Source of the DNA: Nitrospiria bacterium
GTDB lineage: Bacteria > Nitrospirota > UBA9217
Assembly: GCA_919902495.1 (NCBI GenBank)
Contig: CAKKRC010000015.1
Location: 1 to 50,056 of the forward strand
Direction: 5' to 3'
DNA: 50,056 bases
The notes under the pieces are model-generated. The model saw only the letters and a list, made by a program, of their open reading frames with translations. It was not told the DNA's origin and searched no databases. How positions within the stretch are numbered: the first letter of the stretch is position 1; every line of letters begins with the position of its first letter. The position numbers and the translations under genes were made by a program. Positions 2,808 to 38,662 of the stretch are shown piece by piece.

Positions 2808-3387
2808 CTTTCTTCCCGTGGAACAGCTCGCTTCCCATGCCGGCATATACTTTGCGCTCCGTCTTCGGCGTCGGCGCGGTCACAGGCGGCCACCGGTCGG
2901 GCCGCGGCTCGGGACCCTCAAGCGCGGTCTGCGTGGGCTCCCGGTCAGACATCACCGGTATCTGACCGATGTCGCGCCCGGGGATGACGCGGCTGAACTC
3001 GATGGGAATGCCGTTGGGGTCATAGGTGTATATGGAGTGGATGAAACCATGGTCGATCACTTCGGAGACCCAGATGCCGGCCGTAGCGATGCGGTCCTTG
3101 AGCTCCCATAGACCGTCCTCGGTCTCGATCCCGAAAGATACGTGGTCGAAGGCGAATGGCCCGGTTGCCGGCCTTCCGTGCTCCTTTTCCTCGACCGGCA
3201 GAACGCCCGGCCACTCGAAGAAGGCGATCATGTCCCGGTCGGAGATCTGAAGGAAATACTGTCGGTAACCGGGCCGGCCCAGGCCTGCAACGAGCCGCAT
3301 TCCCAGGAGGTCTCTCCAGAACCGGATGGTCTCATCCATCGACCCTGTTGCCAGGGCAAGGTGGTTCACACCGCTGTACGTGATCAT
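2794..3387 (-). CDS. VOC (glyoxalase/extradiol dioxygenase fold) family protein
   Basis: This 197-residue protein has the vicinal oxygen chelate fold: a first beta-alpha-beta module starting MITYSGVNHLALA and a second with FDHVSFGIE, with candidate metal ligands H9, the His of DHVSF (about residue 80) and the Glu of PIEF (about 129). These are the metal-binding positions of glyoxalase I and related dioxygenases. The C-terminal tail after about residue 135 is rich in Pro, Arg and Thr and looks unstructured. The last residues (KEQTR) are encoded by an intergenic repeat that also supplies the stop, so the end of the protein was probably altered by repeat insertion. The substrate is unknown. Confidence 0.75.
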   Translation of the reverse strand: MITYSGVNHLALATGSMDETIRFWRDLLGMRLVAGLGRPGYRQYFLQISDRDMIAFFEWPGVLPVEEKEHGRPATGPFAFDHVSFGIETEDGLWELKDRIATAGIWVSEVIDHGFIHSIYTYDPNGIPIEFSRVIPGRDIGQIPVMSDREPTQTALEGPEPRPDRWPPVTAPTPKTERKVYAGMGSELFHGKKEQTR

Positions 3388-31921: not shown

Positions 31922-34900
31922 CTAAACCGTGACCGTCAGTGCTAACTTCTTGCTGTCCACGAACAACAGGTATCCTTCCACGGCCTCAAGCCGGAACATC
32001 TCCTTGACCGCTTCGCAGTAGATCCTGACCTGGGGACGATAGTGGTCCATCTGTGACTGCAGCGCCTCGTCGTTCTCGATGGTTTTGGTCTTGTAGTCGA
32101 CCACGTACCCCCGTCCGTCCTTGACGACCACGCGGTCGATGATGCCGCTCACGATCTCGTTCCCTTTCCGGTACAGGAAGGGGAGCTCGGAGTATGCCGC
32201 CGGCTGACGGTGGAATATCCATGCCAGCTCGTCGCTCTCCGTGACCGAGCGGATCACCATACCCACACCGGCAAGGAACCGGCCCCGTTCTTCTTCGCTC
32301 AGCGCCCGGACCTCGGGGAACTCGCCCGCGACGGCCGCGGGATCACAGCTTTTCGTTGTGGCGTATTCTTCAAGGCACCGGTGGAAGATACTGCCGCGGA
32401 CGTGCGGAGCAACAGGACCGCTTTCCGGGGCAGATGCCTGCTCAAGAGACCATTCCTTTTCCTGGATAAGGTCGATCGCTTTCTTCCACTCTGGTGACTG
32501 TGGGGCGGCGATGGCGGAGATGTTCGCAAGGACCTTGTCCGCGTCGATCCTTTGCGTCCTCTTCTGTTCCGGAAGGCGTGACCGTGCATCGAAAGCTTCG
32601 ATCGGCAGCACGCGCGCCTGCCATTCCGGGCAGGCATACTCGATGAGCCGTGATCGCGGTTCACTCACGATCTCGGGTGCGGGTAGCGCCTGGTGAAGCC
32701 AGGACAGCCAGGAGTTCTGCCTGACGGGCTTGTTCCCGGTCTCAAGGGTCCCGAACATGACGAGGTGGTCCCGTGCCCGCGTCATGGCCACATACAGGAG
32801 CCGCTGGTGTTCGCGGCGGAGCTCTTCCTGCTCCCGCTCCCACAGCTCGTCGTAGAGCGTGCTTTCCTTGTCCTTCACCGCCATGCGCACGACGCCGTCG
32901 CGGTCCTCGACGATCGCCAGCGGTCCGGCGGTGACGGACCGGGGCTGCTGATTCATGCCCGGAAGAAACACGACGGCGAACTCCAGTCCTTTTGCCTTGT
33001 GCACGGTCATGATGCTCACCGCGCCGCGTGATCCGGGCAGGTTCATGTCCGCGGCGGCCTCGCGCTGGTCGGAATCGCGGATGTTCTTCACCCACTCCAC
33101 GAGGTCCTGCAGCGTGGTGTATCCCCTGCGGTCGAACTCGCGCGCCGTGTCGAGCAGCTTGTCCAGGTTGAAGATCGCCTGGGGGTTCCGCTTCCCGAAC
33201 CGTATATAGGCGCCGGTGTCCCCGATGATGCGGTGGACCAGCCCGGCAAGCGGCTCCGTCAATGCATACCGCGACCAGCGGTCCAGCAGGTCTCCGGCGG
33301 AGGGATGGTCGCGCCGGATGTTGTTCATCATGTCCCCGTCCATGCAGGTCTTCAGGATGTCCTGGTCGGTGAGCCCGAAGAGGGGGGAACGGAGGCTGGC
33401 CGCAAGGGAGAACCGGTCGTCCCTGTTCCACAGGAAGAAGAGCACGTTCAGCACCGCCTGGACCTCGTCCTCCTCGTAAAAGCCGATGCCGCCCACCACG
33501 CGGAACGGGACGTCTTCCGCCTGGAGCGCCGCTTCGTACTCCTTGAGCTTTGTCCGGCTCTGGATGAGGATCGCGCAGTCATTGTATCCGGCAGCACGCT
33601 GCACCCAGCTACGCGACTTGCTCCCGCCCTCGCGTATCTCCTGTCCGGGCAGGGACCGTTCATAGACGGACGTCCCGCTCTCGATCAGCATTCTGATCTC
33701 TCTTGCCAGAACATCCGCTTCCGTCGCGCCGCCGCCGGCATCTTCCCTCGCTCTATCCGTCAAGAGCTCAACGAGCCGCACGCTGCCCGCGCTGTCCTTC
33801 CGGTCCGGCGCGGAAGGCTGATACTCCCCGCTCCAGAGCGTACCGAAGACCTTGTTGACCGTATCGACGATCTCGGGCGCGGAACGGTAGTTCTTATCAA
33901 GCGTCCGGATGTCCCGCAATGCCTCCGGGAGCTGTTCCATCTTCTCGCGGATGCTGTCGATGAGACGGTAGTTCGCCTCGCGGAACCGGTAGATGGACTG
34001 TTTCTTGTCGCCCACAACGAACAGGGTAGGCTCCAGGGGCTTGTCCGCTCCCTGGCCGGAGAAGATCTCCTCGGTCAGCCGGTCAAGGACCGCCCACTGG
34101 ATGTCGCTGGTGTCCTGGAACTCGTCCACCAGGAAGTGGAGGATCTTCCGGTCGAGCCAGTAGAGGATGTCCGGCGTTTCCGGGGACCGCAGGAGGCGGT
34201 AGGCATAGATCTCGAGGTCGTCGAAGTCCAGAAGGCCTTCGCGGAGCTTCGCGGTCTGATAGCGCTCCTCTGCCCGCTGGAACAGCTTGAGCAGGCTCTG
34301 CGCTTCCCGGCCGGCCCGGATCCGTGCGTGGAGGTCGCGGAACCGAACCAGCAGGTCCTGGACCGCAAAGTACGCTTCTTCATACTGCTTCCGTTCCGTT
34401 CCGCTGAAATATTTTTTAGCGATATATGGTTTCTTCGCCGGGCTGCCGTCCTTGTTGAAATAGACCGGGGCAAGGTCCCTGATGATCGCTGACGCGGCAG
34501 CTGTTGTTCGCGCATCTGCAAGGAAAAGGTGCGCCCCGCCCCGGCACGCTTCGTAATGGGCGCCCTGCGTCTTAAGGATGGACCCCATCGTTCGCAGAAC
34601 GGCGCGCCATCCGGCGCTCGTGATGAAGCTGTCCAGATCGTTCTCGGCGTGCCCGGTCCCCATGCCGGAACTGACGGCGCGCAGCAGTTTTTCCGGTCCG
34701 CCCGCGTCGATCTCCCTGCGCTTGAGCCTGCTCCTGATCTTGAGCAGGAATCCGAGGGTGTCGATCAGGTCGTCTGCCGAGAGATCGCCCAGCGGGGCCA
34801 TGATCCCGGCGTCGCGGTCCAGCTCCTCAAGGGTCTCCTCGATGGCCTGCTGTGTCTTGTACGTCTGGTCCCGCTCGTCAAGGATGCCGAAGTCCGGTGG

Positions 34901-35227
34901 AAGGCCTGCTTCGAGCGGGTAGCGCTTCAGGAGGTTCATGCAGAAGGAGTGGATGGTCGAGATGCGGAGGTCCTGCCGGCCCCGGATGATCTTCTTGAGC
35001 ATGGGCTCGGGCAGGCCCTCCATCACCCGCTTCTTGATCTCCGCCGCCGCTTTGTCCGTGAAGGTGATGGCCACGGCCTGGTCGATGTTGAGGTCATTTT
35101 GGTCAAGCAGGTCCAGGAGCGCGAGATAGCGGTCCTTCAGCGCGCGCGTCTTGCCGGACCCGGCCGATGCCGAGAGGTGGATGGAACGGGAGGTGTCGGG
35201 GGTCTTATCGGGGCGATTAATATTCAT
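31922..35227 (-). CDS. addA: AddA-like UvrD-family helicase-nuclease
   Basis: The 1101-residue protein has the SF1 helicase motifs in order: Walker A SASAGSGKT (residues 19-27), QxVAITFTDKAA, Walker B HFLVDEFQDTSD, VVGDKKQSIYRFREA, YRSAPEIVDT, TVHKAKGLEF and TRARDHLVMFG. The C-terminal PD-(D/E)xK nuclease is seen as IIDRVVVKDGRGYVVDYKTK. It fits AddA (length about 1100-1250), which processes double-strand breaks with AddB before RecA loading. The AddB-like gene lies immediately upstream, but a decayed transposase now separates the two (35240-35612). Confidence 0.9.
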   Translation of the reverse strand: MNINRPDKTPDTSRSIHLSASAGSGKTRALKDRYLALLDLLDQNDLNIDQAVAITFTDKAAAEIKKRVMEGLPEPMLKKIIRGRQDLRISTIHSFCMNLLKRYPLEAGLPPDFGILDERDQTYKTQQAIEETLEELDRDAGIMAPLGDLSADDLIDTLGFLLKIRSRLKRREIDAGGPEKLLRAVSSGMGTGHAENDLDSFITSAGWRAVLRTMGSILKTQGAHYEACRGGAHLFLADARTTAAASAIIRDLAPVYFNKDGSPAKKPYIAKKYFSGTERKQYEEAYFAVQDLLVRFRDLHARIRAGREAQSLLKLFQRAEERYQTAKLREGLLDFDDLEIYAYRLLRSPETPDILYWLDRKILHFLVDEFQDTSDIQWAVLDRLTEEIFSGQGADKPLEPTLFVVGDKKQSIYRFREANYRLIDSIREKMEQLPEALRDIRTLDKNYRSAPEIVDTVNKVFGTLWSGEYQPSAPDRKDSAGSVRLVELLTDRAREDAGGGATEADVLAREIRMLIESGTSVYERSLPGQEIREGGSKSRSWVQRAAGYNDCAILIQSRTKLKEYEAALQAEDVPFRVVGGIGFYEEDEVQAVLNVLFFLWNRDDRFSLAASLRSPLFGLTDQDILKTCMDGDMMNNIRRDHPSAGDLLDRWSRYALTEPLAGLVHRIIGDTGAYIRFGKRNPQAIFNLDKLLDTAREFDRRGYTTLQDLVEWVKNIRDSDQREAAADMNLPGSRGAVSIMTVHKAKGLEFAVVFLPGMNQQPRSVTAGPLAIVEDRDGVVRMAVKDKESTLYDELWEREQEELRREHQRLLYVAMTRARDHLVMFGTLETGNKPVRQNSWLSWLHQALPAPEIVSEPRSRLIEYACPEWQARVLPIEAFDARSRLPEQKRTQRIDADKVLANISAIAAPQSPEWKKAIDLIQEKEWSLEQASAPESGPVAPHVRGSIFHRCLEEYATTKSCDPAAVAGEFPEVRALSEEERGRFLAGVGMVIRSVTESDELAWIFHRQPAAYSELPFLYRKGNEIVSGIIDRVVVKDGRGYVVDYKTKTIENDEALQSQMDHYRPQVRIYCEAVKEMFRLEAVEGYLLFVDSKKLALTVTV

Positions 35228-35239
35228 GATACGCTTAGT

Positions 35240-35599
35240 TTACCTGTCGGTTTCGGCTTGCTCCTTTCGTTCAGGATTTTCATTGTCTTGCTCCCAGCCG
35301 GCAGGATTATTGATAACGTATTCGCGAATGGCGTTCAGATCGCGTTCGTCACGGATGACGTGCTCATAGTAGTTACGTGGCCACAATTTTCCGGGAAAGG
35401 GCCGCCATTGACATTGTTCGACACCCCGGATGTAATCATTCGTCGTCATGGTCTTGAACCAATCGATCATGTCGCCTAATGTAGGGGCAACCCTATGTGG
35501 TTGCCCTCCTGGGCGGCCAAGAAGGGCCGCCCCTGCGATATTCTGATCTGATCCGTCAGGGCGGCCACATAGGGCCGCCCCTACGGGTGATTCGGTCAC
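35240..35599 (-). pseudogene. decayed REP-associated tyrosine transposase (RAYT), C-terminal part only
   Basis: The frame ends with KLWPRNYYEHVIRDERDLNAIREYVINNPAGWEQDNENPE (shown in two parts: KLWPRNYYEHVIRDERD and LNAIREYVINNPAGWEQ), the usual C-terminus of RAYT proteins (xRNYYEHIIRxExELNxIREYIxxNP). The N-terminal HUH motif and the tyrosine helix are missing: before about residue 42 the frame is made of REP-like repeat sequence (GAALCGRPDG, GAALLGRPGG). It is therefore a truncated remnant and not a working enzyme. Confidence 0.82.
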
Positions 35600-35618
35600 G
35601 CGGGGCCGCCCCTACGAA
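35484..35618. repeat. REP-like palindrome cluster (GGGCCGCCCCTACG family)
   Basis: Five or so GGGCGGCC/GGCCGCCC palindromic units lie here, for example GGGCGGCCACATAGGGCCGC and GGGCCGCCCCTACGA. The cluster directly borders the RAYT remnant and runs to the stop of addB, as REP arrays often do beside their transposase. Confidence 0.8.
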
Positions 35619-38600
35619 TCCTCTTTTCCGCACATCATCCCGTTCGGGCAATTCCGGCACTTGTTCTGGTCCCGCGGTGTGGACGGGAAGTTGCCGGCTC
35701 GGATCCCTTCGATCGCCCTACGGGCGCTGTCCATGCTCATGGCCAGGAGCGCCTCAAAATCGGCCGCGCTCTTCGGGCTTGCCTTCGGTTTCGTCGAAGG
35801 CTGGTCCCCCAGGGCTTCTTTATCATAGAGGACCAGGTCCCGTGTGGCTCCCTTGTTCTTCCCGGACAGGTCGTAGTAGGCAAGGCCGACGGTCCGCTTG
35901 AGGCCGGGGTCCTTGTCCGCCAGGGTCCGCAGGGCCATGACCGCGTAGACCGGGAGCTGGAAGATCTCCTGTTCGAGCGTCATCACGGGAAGGGGATAGC
36001 CGCCGGTCTTGTAGTCCACGATGATGAAATTGCCATGCTCGTCCACGTCGATGCGGTCGATCTTTCCATGCAGTTCGACCCCGGTGCCGTCGGCCAGCGT
36101 GAGCGTGAAGGACTCGATCTTCTGCTCCAGGTAGGCCGGCCGGAAGCCCTGTTTCCAGAACTCCTCCTCGGCGTCGAGGAACCGCTCCGCCATGACCGTG
36201 ACGAACAGGTCCTTTTCCCGGCGGTTGCGGAAGGTGTCGGCCTCATAGCTGAACTCCCGATCGGCGAGGCCGGCGAGGAGCTCGTTGGCCTTGTCCCGGT
36301 CCCCCGCGGTCACCGGCCCGTTCCATTCTGCGTAGAACCGCCGGAGGATCGAATGCACCTTGCTTCCCCGGTCGAGGGCAGAGATGTCCTCGGACACTTC
36401 CTCCAGCGGGGATATCCTGAGCAGGTGCTTCACATAGTACGCGTAGGGACACTTGAGATAGTCGTCCAGTTCGGTGACGGAATATTCCTTCCTTTCCCGG
36501 GTTGCCAGTGACCCCGGCGTTGCTGCCGGCTGGTAGTCAAGGCCGCGTGCTATCCCCGCCATGCCTTCGCGATCGCCGGCCAGCACCTTTTCCAGACCGG
36601 TGATGTCTCCCGCGAGGGACAAAGATTTCGCCAGCTCCGGAATGCTCCGGCTATCCTCGACCGTGAGGCTGAACTGGACGTTCCGTGTTTCTTTCATCAC
36701 GCCTGCCCTGAGGAGCGGGGTGAGCTCCGCGAGGAACGGTGACGGCACGATGGGCTTGTCGCCCACGTTCTCCGGCCAGGTGAGCGTGACGCGGGGCGCC
36801 GAGAGCAGGAGGCGGTAGAAATGGCTGGCAGCGTTCAGCCGGGCGTTCTCCAGCGTGCGCACGCCCAGGGCCTCGAGGGTGGCCTCGGGCAGAAAGATGT
36901 TCTGGGGCAGGCGCCGGGGGAACGCTCCGTCCATGAGCCCGCCGAGATAGATCTCCGTCCAGGCGTGGCCGATGCTTTCTTCCATGCCCAGGACCTGGAC
37001 GCCGCCCTCGTCGTCCTGCGGGACCTGATAGCGGGTATGCATGAAGGTCTTCTTGAGCAGGAACAGCCATTCGTTGAACGTATAGGAATATTCAGGGAAG
37101 AGGTCGCCTGCCTGGCGGAGGGACGCGAGCGTCTCGGTCAGTTTCTTGTAGGCCTGGAGGTTGCTGTTGAGGGGTCCCTTGATGAGCGTCACCCGCCCGC
37201 TGAGGCCCGACCAGGTCAGGAGGGAGGACAGGCGGTCCATCCACGAGGTGAGCGGTGCCGGGTCCCGCGTGGAAAAAGGGTCCAAGGCCAGGAACAGGTC
37301 CTTGATCGAGCCCGTGAGAATATCATGTCCTTCCGCTTCCGGCGAAGCGCGCTTGAGCGCCATAAGCAGTTTGTGCCTGCCTCCGGTGATGCGGCGGTCC
37401 GCCATCAAGCGGGCAAGTGCCGGAGCGAGGGAAGGGGCCTCGCCGAACTTCAGGAAGGGCGAGCTGAAGATGCGGAGCAGCGAGGGCCCGGAATGATCCT
37501 CGCGGCAGGAGGACAGGAGCGAGACCACGGCGGTGGTCACCGGCGAGGCGCTGAGCTGACGGCCGAGGGCGCGATTGTAAGGGATGCCGAAGTCGGTGAA
37601 CAGCTCCTCAGCGAGCGGGCCGTATTCATCGAGCGATGGAAATGCCACGAGGATGGAGTCGGGGGGCCTTCCGGCCAGGAGCGACCGCTTCACCTCGCCC
37701 GCGATGAACGACACCTCCTCGCGCATGGTGATCGCCGAGAGCAGGCGGAGGTCCTTCCGGAAGTCAGGCGGCGCTTTCTTTGCCGCCTCGTCGAAGGACC
37801 TGGCCGAGAACAGCGCTTCGGCGAGGTAGCGATCGTCCGTTCCTGCCGGCACGGACGATCCCCCGACCATGAGGCCGACGCGGGCCATGAACTCCTTCAA
37901 GAGCCTCAGCGGGTGGTAGTCACCGGCGTTCCGGATGCTGTCGGGCGAGGGGGCGTCCACCAGGAACGTGCAGTCATGGTGTGCCGCGATCTTGCGCAGG
38001 ACCCGGACCTGGAGCTCGGACGCGTCGTGCAGTCCGTCGATGATGATGGTCGAGTAGGAAGTAAGCCAGGAGGGATCGAACCGGTCGGCGAGATGGGAGA
38101 GCATACCCGCGGGATCGGCAAGCCCCCGGGTGGACAGGATCCGCTCATACGTTTCATAGGCCTCCATGAGCAACCGCACCTGCGGTTTGTCGGAGACGTC
38201 GGACATCGCTACGGCTCCCGCCAGGTGCTCCGGCGAGATGCCCGACGCGGACAGCTCCTCGATCATACCGGCCACCGCGGCGGAAAGCGACGGGGCCAGG
38301 ATGTCCGGCGTGTTCCCGAACGCCTTCTTCCCGGTGATGCACGACTTCACGATTCCTTCGAGCAGGACGAGCCGTCCGTTCTCGTCGATGAGCGCGGGGC
38401 CTCCGGTCTTCTCGGAGAGCCGCTGCAGGAAGAGAGGGAGGGTCTGGACCTCGGGCTGCACCAGGGCATGGCTGCGACGGGTCCGCTCCATGATGTCCAG
38501 AAAAAGCCTGCCGTAGGTCCTGCGGAGGCGTGAAGAGGGGACGATGAGCAAAACATCGTTATACAGGAACGGGGGGCCTGCCTTTTTGGAGAACAGCTCC

Positions 38601-38662
38601 TCAATGATCCGGACCTTCTCGCCCCAGCCCGCTGCTCCGTATGGCGCTATGCGTGTTTGCAT
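35612..38662 (-). CDS. addB: AddB-like nuclease with iron-sulfur cysteines
   Basis: The 1016-residue protein has an inactive UvrD-like N-terminal region (PSSRLRRTYGRLFL, no Walker A lysine) and a C-terminal PD-(D/E)xK nuclease, GKIDRIDVDEHGNFIIVDYKTG. Four cysteines for the AddB-type 4Fe-4S clamp are present: CPYAYYVKHLLRI before the nuclease and CRNCPNGMMCG at the end. With the AddA-like protein downstream it would form the break-processing helicase-nuclease. Start ATG at 38662 lacks a Shine-Dalgarno sequence and is placed by the promoter at 38672-38700. The 3' end touches the REP-like repeats. Confidence 0.85.
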   Translation of the reverse strand: MQTRIAPYGAAGWGEKVRIIEELFSKKAGPPFLYNDVLLIVPSSRLRRTYGRLFLDIMERTRRSHALVQPEVQTLPLFLQRLSEKTGGPALIDENGRLVLLEGIVKSCITGKKAFGNTPDILAPSLSAAVAGMIEELSASGISPEHLAGAVAMSDVSDKPQVRLLMEAYETYERILSTRGLADPAGMLSHLADRFDPSWLTSYSTIIIDGLHDASELQVRVLRKIAAHHDCTFLVDAPSPDSIRNAGDYHPLRLLKEFMARVGLMVGGSSVPAGTDDRYLAEALFSARSFDEAAKKAPPDFRKDLRLLSAITMREEVSFIAGEVKRSLLAGRPPDSILVAFPSLDEYGPLAEELFTDFGIPYNRALGRQLSASPVTTAVVSLLSSCREDHSGPSLLRIFSSPFLKFGEAPSLAPALARLMADRRITGGRHKLLMALKRASPEAEGHDILTGSIKDLFLALDPFSTRDPAPLTSWMDRLSSLLTWSGLSGRVTLIKGPLNSNLQAYKKLTETLASLRQAGDLFPEYSYTFNEWLFLLKKTFMHTRYQVPQDDEGGVQVLGMEESIGHAWTEIYLGGLMDGAFPRRLPQNIFLPEATLEALGVRTLENARLNAASHFYRLLLSAPRVTLTWPENVGDKPIVPSPFLAELTPLLRAGVMKETRNVQFSLTVEDSRSIPELAKSLSLAGDITGLEKVLAGDREGMAGIARGLDYQPAATPGSLATRERKEYSVTELDDYLKCPYAYYVKHLLRISPLEEVSEDISALDRGSKVHSILRRFYAEWNGPVTAGDRDKANELLAGLADREFSYEADTFRNRREKDLFVTVMAERFLDAEEEFWKQGFRPAYLEQKIESFTLTLADGTGVELHGKIDRIDVDEHGNFIIVDYKTGGYPLPVMTLEQEIFQLPVYAVMALRTLADKDPGLKRTVGLAYYDLSGKNKGATRDLVLYDKEALGDQPSTKPKASPKSAADFEALLAMSMDSARRAIEGIRAGNFPSTPRDQNKCRNCPNGMMCGKEDS

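Follow-up and report, generated by a model that had tools for sequence, protein, structure and literature searches.

A REP-bounded C-terminal half of a RAYT gene between addB and addA in a Nitrospiria genome, probably a 5'-truncated relic

The stretch of DNA analyzed here, called the window, comprises 50,056 nucleotides of contig CAKKRC010000015.1 from a Nitrospiria bacterium (assembly GCA_919902495.1, designated G000). Between its genes addB and addA lies part of a RAYT, a transposase (TnpAREP) associated with repetitive extragenic palindromic (REP) sequences. Along the minus strand addB comes first, followed by a group of REP units, the RAYT C-terminal half (C-half), and addA. An open reading frame (ORF) at 35240-35599 (-) encodes 119 amino acids, consisting of a REP-derived peptide followed by the C-terminal half of RAYT/TnpAREP, and its GTG start falls within a REP. 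Four REP units stand 5' of the C-half: one partial, one complete, and an inverted doublet directly before it. The distance from the addB stop to the addA ATG is 384 nt, and the GTAG foot of the outermost REP supplies the TAG stop of addB. The features are listed below; the profile bit scores of addA and addB fall under the equivalog cut-offs, and the two names are backed by gene order and by relatives.

35240..35480, minus strand: RAYT/TnpAREP C-terminal half (Tyr half, with YVINNP), matching NF047646 positions 72-131; stop codon TAA at 35240-35242
35378..35383, minus strand: W-P codons TGG CCA, where all 65 of 65 intact relatives have W-Q
35481..35506, plus strand: REP unit of AACC type, proximal to the C-half, the inner unit of the loop doublet
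35511..35536, minus strand: REP unit of GGCC type, with foot GCAG instead of GTAG, the outer unit of the loop doublet
35559..35584, minus strand: complete REP unit of GGCC type, counterpart of the 5'-flank REP of genome G001
35597..35615, minus strand: partial REP whose GTAG foot is the addB TAG stop
35612..38662, minus strand: addB, the upstream neighbor, named from profile match, gene order and relatives
31922..35227, minus strand: addA, the downstream neighbor, named on the same three grounds

Residues 41-99 of the ORF match positions 72-131 of the 146 in model NF047646, REP_Tyr_transpos (E 7.1e-8; 32.5 bits, where the cut-off is 80), and because the match is confined to those positions only the C-terminal part of a RAYT is present. 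A Pfam search of the 119-residue ORF gave no match, and no solved structure related in sequence to the element was found at E 0.001. A hidden Markov model (HMM) for the RAYT N-terminal half (N-half) found nothing in the six frames of the window's addB-addA interval, designated L101, where the best independent E-value (i-E) was 19, versus 4.5e-37 for the corresponding locus of G001. With no N-half in any frame, a simple frameshift cannot account for the missing portion, and a frameshifted but intact RAYT was rejected. The initial annotation had described a RAYT remnant reduced to its C-terminus, and that description holds; it had also asked whether correction of a sequencing error would restore an intact N-terminus in frame, and none of the six frames offers one.

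Two comparison genomes, G001 (locus L102) and G002, belong to the same genus as G000. At the same addB|addA site, G001 carries an intact RAYT of 188 residues, whose order is a flank REP at the addB stop, the start codon, the HUH motif PNHFH, an in-frame VGAALCGRPGGQPHGVAPT, LGDMIDWFKTM, and the Tyr half. The window C-half is 86% identical to residues 88-177 of this protein, which take in some of the REP linker. Set against G001, the window has outer REPs, the loop doublet and the Tyr half but no HUH half; with no N-half in the interval, the HUH motif NH[IFV]H is absent. Its Y motif is YVINNP where the published form is YIxNNP, so that the Tyr is kept and Ile is replaced by Val. Its W motif is WP and not WQ, and two other broken relics have departed from WQ as well (L061, WH; L190, WR). 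The G001 protein shows the motifs of TnpAREP subclass 2.4 (HUH as PNHFH, WQ, and YIVNNP) and, judged from these motifs and its internal REP, appears to be subclass-2.4-like. The window element is very probably a 5'-truncated relic of such a subclass-2.4-like RAYT, with its HUH half lost between REPs.

Besides the window's genome, eleven genomes of the same family have a clear addB-addA junction (L102-L112; G006 and G013, which have no clear addA, are uncounted), with distances measured to the nearest in-frame ATG. A RAYT occupies the junction in two of the eleven, G001 and G004. Four have no real gap (a 1-nt overlap in G002, 11-nt overlaps in G009 and G012, and a 2-nt gap in G010), in agreement with the earlier claim that the remnant splits two genes that would otherwise be adjacent; the other five have gaps of 96 to 810 nt (G003, G005, G007, G008, and G011). 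The overlaps in G002, G009, and G012 suggest a translational coupling of addB and addA that would have been lost in the window. The initial annotation proposed that the remnant may weaken co-transcription of the two genes; across 35150-35700 nothing promoter-like was detected, and the one terminator-like match lies within addB on the opposite strand and scores at the level of shuffled sequence. The G004 RAYT (L111) is intact, differs from that of G001, and has another REP family, GTAGGGGCGGGTTTCAAACCCGCCC, on its 5' flank, in-frame in its loop, and at its 3' end. Because the two proteins are 53% identical and a rough FastTree tree of 76 sequences places them in separate clades, two RAYTs probably reached the addB|addA junction independently; for the same reasons, a single ancestral insertion serving both genomes is not favored. 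Among the other addB-addA gaps the only RAYT trace is a weak one in G011 (L112; i-E 0.0042), a C-motif trace, SNYRQHMIRNEHGLNGI, that may represent a third RAYT relic here.

The REP-like units belong, as first proposed, to a real and genome-wide family. Its core pattern was counted 52 times in G000 versus 0 for a reversed control pattern, which never exceeds 1 per genome and strand, and a stricter pattern occurs 51 times versus 1. Core counts are 40 in G001 and 1 in G002, and run from 0 to 14 in the remaining eleven genomes of the family (14 in G005, 12 in G004). Many copies are arranged as inverted doublets, and an AACC-type unit is joined to a GGCC-type unit in 29 of 29 typed close pairs from G000 and G001; the rows for this typing were copied by hand, and it does not include another G001 pair, whose types differ. 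G002, with its lone core, has neither a RAYT match nor an addB-addA gap. A single genus therefore presents three states, no RAYT in G002, an intact RAYT in G001, and a truncated one in G000, with 1, 40, and 52 cores respectively, a comparison well suited to tests of a REP population that outlives its transposase.

The genome search that the initial annotation proposed, for an intact RAYT with matching REP units, succeeded for the REPs but returned no intact cognate RAYT. A search of G000 with the window protein finds no second intact copy and returns only the window locus; with the G001 protein as query, the sole addition is a REP-coded stretch in a restriction-modification (RM) gene. Four other NF047646 matches in G000 have no REP of the window family in their 2-3.4-kb loci, and the matches L003, L004, and L006 differ in layout from the window RAYT. 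It is possible that an intact cognate lies outside the assembled part of G000, which is 97% complete.

The RM gene, of the Eco57I type (L207:790-4023 (-), on G000:C38), contains an in-frame REPIN of the window family at G000:C38:38595-38647, and its REP peptide, VGAALRGRPVSGQPHGVAPT, starts at residue 625 of 1077. In genome G320 a homologous RM gene (L208 ~2990-3330, on G320:C54; 71% across residues 311-627) ceases to match at that REP site and runs on in-frame through REPs into a RAYT C-half. This join is either a REP-mediated rearrangement, making the gene a mosaic, or an assembly chimera.

We surveyed breakage of RAYT genes in 73 relative loci and 20 hand-picked regions, which are not a random sample. 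The set holds 18 C-half pieces without a nearby N-half, at 17 loci with the window included, after two contig-edge cases were set aside. A REP lies within -120 to +30 of the C-half start in 12 of the 18, versus 2 of 100 control windows further upstream. Four loci besides the window (L185, L187, L188, and L194) repeat the order forward REP, spacer, reverse REP, C-half. For pieces consisting of the N-half only, a REP marks the break in two of five (control, 0 of 27). In a Desulfobacca metagenome-assembled genome (L049:4820-6010), the upstream REP array and the N-half are tandemly duplicated with a step of 612 nt, yielding a frame of 429 residues with two HUH motifs; this duplication is the reciprocal of a deletion. 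At another locus, L205 (G323:C2:408900-413500), which belongs to a contig of 585 kb, a RAYT is interrupted within its loop REP by about 1.5 kb of extra DNA.

The REP-bounded half-genes suggest that internal REPs predispose these transposases to loss of the catalytic half. A broader proposal may be advanced tentatively, and we lean against it at present: RAYT genes with an internal REP might break there, recombination of this REP with flanking or dispersed ones recurrently removing or duplicating the nuclease half, with REP-bounded half-genes in several phyla as the outcome, and sometimes joining a half to another REP-tagged gene, such as the G320 RM gene. Were this true, an internal REP would be a built-in limit on the life of the transposase. 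Among papers listed by searches of open-licence PMC text, none describes RAYT half-genes broken at a REP in its title or in the opening of its abstract, which is weak evidence of absence.

The sequence of events at the addB-addA site may be reconstructed as follows. A RAYT very probably stood at this site already in the common ancestor of G000 and G001, as a working gene that is still intact in G001 and whose loop, which connects the HUH and Tyr halves, carries a REP doublet in frame; the peptide encoded by these REPs is a tolerated linker, as published for the subclass. In the window lineage the HUH half then dropped out between the 5'-flank REP and that of the loop, likely by deletion between REP copies, whether through recombination or through replication slippage at near-identical palindromes some 310 bp apart. 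This is the simplest mechanism, as the G001 flank REP and loop REP share an identical direct 25-mer, the two copies 313 bp apart. Beyond the addB-addA site, the C-half pieces with a REP at the break and the tandem duplication at L049 support it. What remained would be a C-half relic that, without the HUH motif on which HUH nuclease activity depends, should be unable to act as an HUH nuclease, in a genome whose REPs have no detectable cognate transposase.

Several observations weigh against this reconstruction. The window has an extra partial REP as well as short spacers of 12 and 22 nt, and an exact REP-by-REP crossover cannot be drawn. REPs and RAYT do not always go together, as G005 has 14 REP cores and a weak RAYT match (3.5e-4). 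Six of the 18 C-half pieces fail the strict REP test, although by eye a REP is visible in L034, L193, and the second L073 piece, and three of the five N-half pieces fail it too (L196 shows a hairpin by eye). In six of the 73 relatives a frame or stop change explains the break, the N-half being still present upstream, and REP-bounded loss is therefore not the sole route. Finally, the assemblies are drafts, in which a mis-join or a collapse at REPs is possible.

This last point leads to an alternative, that the true gene is intact and that the assembler skipped the N-half at the REP repeats. The 25-nt direct repeat common to the G001 flank and loop REPs would provide the means, and G000 is a draft of 110 contigs. 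However, the spacers and REP units of the window are not what a simple collapse of the G001 layout should produce, and the locus is interior to a 50-kb contig with both neighbors in place. We regard an artefact of this kind as very improbable.

Over 69 codons compared with G001, the C-half carries 13 changes that are synonymous and 10 that are not, giving a ratio of non-synonymous to synonymous rates (dN/dS) of 0.146, a rough figure at that length. The corresponding values for addA, 0.289 (311 codons), and addB, 0.264 (131 codons), are both higher. The C-half has therefore probably been under constraint for most of the time since G000 and G001 split, and the low ratio, with no sign of long neutral decay, makes it probable that the truncation is recent. 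The late stage of decay proposed in the initial annotation is accordingly doubtful.

Might the REP-bounded C-half instead be a moving or functional unit, either mobilized by a RAYT in trans or acting as a REP-binding peptide, and no dead leftover? Its open frame of 119 residues and its low dN/dS speak for this, as do the recurrence of stand-alone C-halves with REPs and the in-frame joining of a C-half to the G320 RM gene at a REP. On the other side, the constraint may predate the truncation, the WQ motif is broken, translation would have to start inside a REP, and the 35150-35700 interval yielded no promoter-like site. Moreover, G001 shows the C-half already at this site. A moving or functional C-half is, in our estimate, very unlikely.

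The passage of the reading frame through REPs also finds its explanation in the intact gene. The VGAALCGRPGGQPHGVAPT linker of the G001 RAYT is itself a GGCC/AACC REP doublet, with a further REP on the 5' flank, and because this intact gene reads through a doublet matching that of the window, the continuity of REP and RAYT frames is ancestral and not a product of decay. Our sample accords with what Quentin et al. 2018 (PMC6006769) describe. A motif scan covered 65 intact RAYTs, 62 of them with a loop long enough for a loop test. Loop DNA matches the gene's own flanks (up to 1.5 kb per side) at a score of at least 16 in 33 of the 62, versus 3.5% of comparisons with the flanks of other loci, where at least two of the 33 matches (L028 and L068) are not REP-like and L049 and L077 hold gene duplications; the genes' own N-terminal segments reach this score in 3 of 61. 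The forward foot of the loop REP is read as GTA-GGG in 36 cases and as x-GT-AGG in 5; the third frame through the GTAG foot would be a TAG stop. That a decayed RAYT fragment became fused in-frame to neighboring REPs as a late step, as the initial annotation supposed from a lone C-half with a frame passing through REPs, can hardly be right, since the intact G001 gene has the same in-frame layout and that layout is published (PMC6006769). In one RAYT subclass the frame ordinarily passes through REPs, and the natural misreading of this arrangement as decay is thereby corrected. As a separate matter of frame, addB and RAYT are in register across the TAG of the REP in both G000 and G001, and readthrough of that TAG would yield an AddB-RAYT fusion (window 35240-35620 and L102).

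The closest known system is TnpAREP subclass 2.4, for which in-frame REPs within the gene are reported by Quentin et al. 2018 (PMC6006769), together with a structural model in which the loop lies away from the active site. The likeness rests on the motifs NH[IFV]H, WQ, and YIxNNP in the G001 orthologue; the window copy differs in being a relic, without the HUH half and with WP. GTAG REPs commonly give a neighboring gene its TAG stop, according to Di Nocera et al. 2013 (PMC3733652), and both this use of the REP foot and the presence of in-frame REPs within genes recur here; in the present case, however, it is a truncated RAYT that has the REPs inside it. The REPINs of Bertels and Rainey 2011 (PMC3116915) resemble the present repeats in having short-spacer inverted REP doublets as the repeated unit, but that paper covered extragenic doublets, while one doublet here lies inside a RAYT gene and another inside an RM gene. 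The biochemistry of binding and cleavage of cognate single-stranded REPs is treated in PMC8266576. Beside these systems, the window element is a RAYT relic of a known kind, and its REP-bounded breakage is a small general point.
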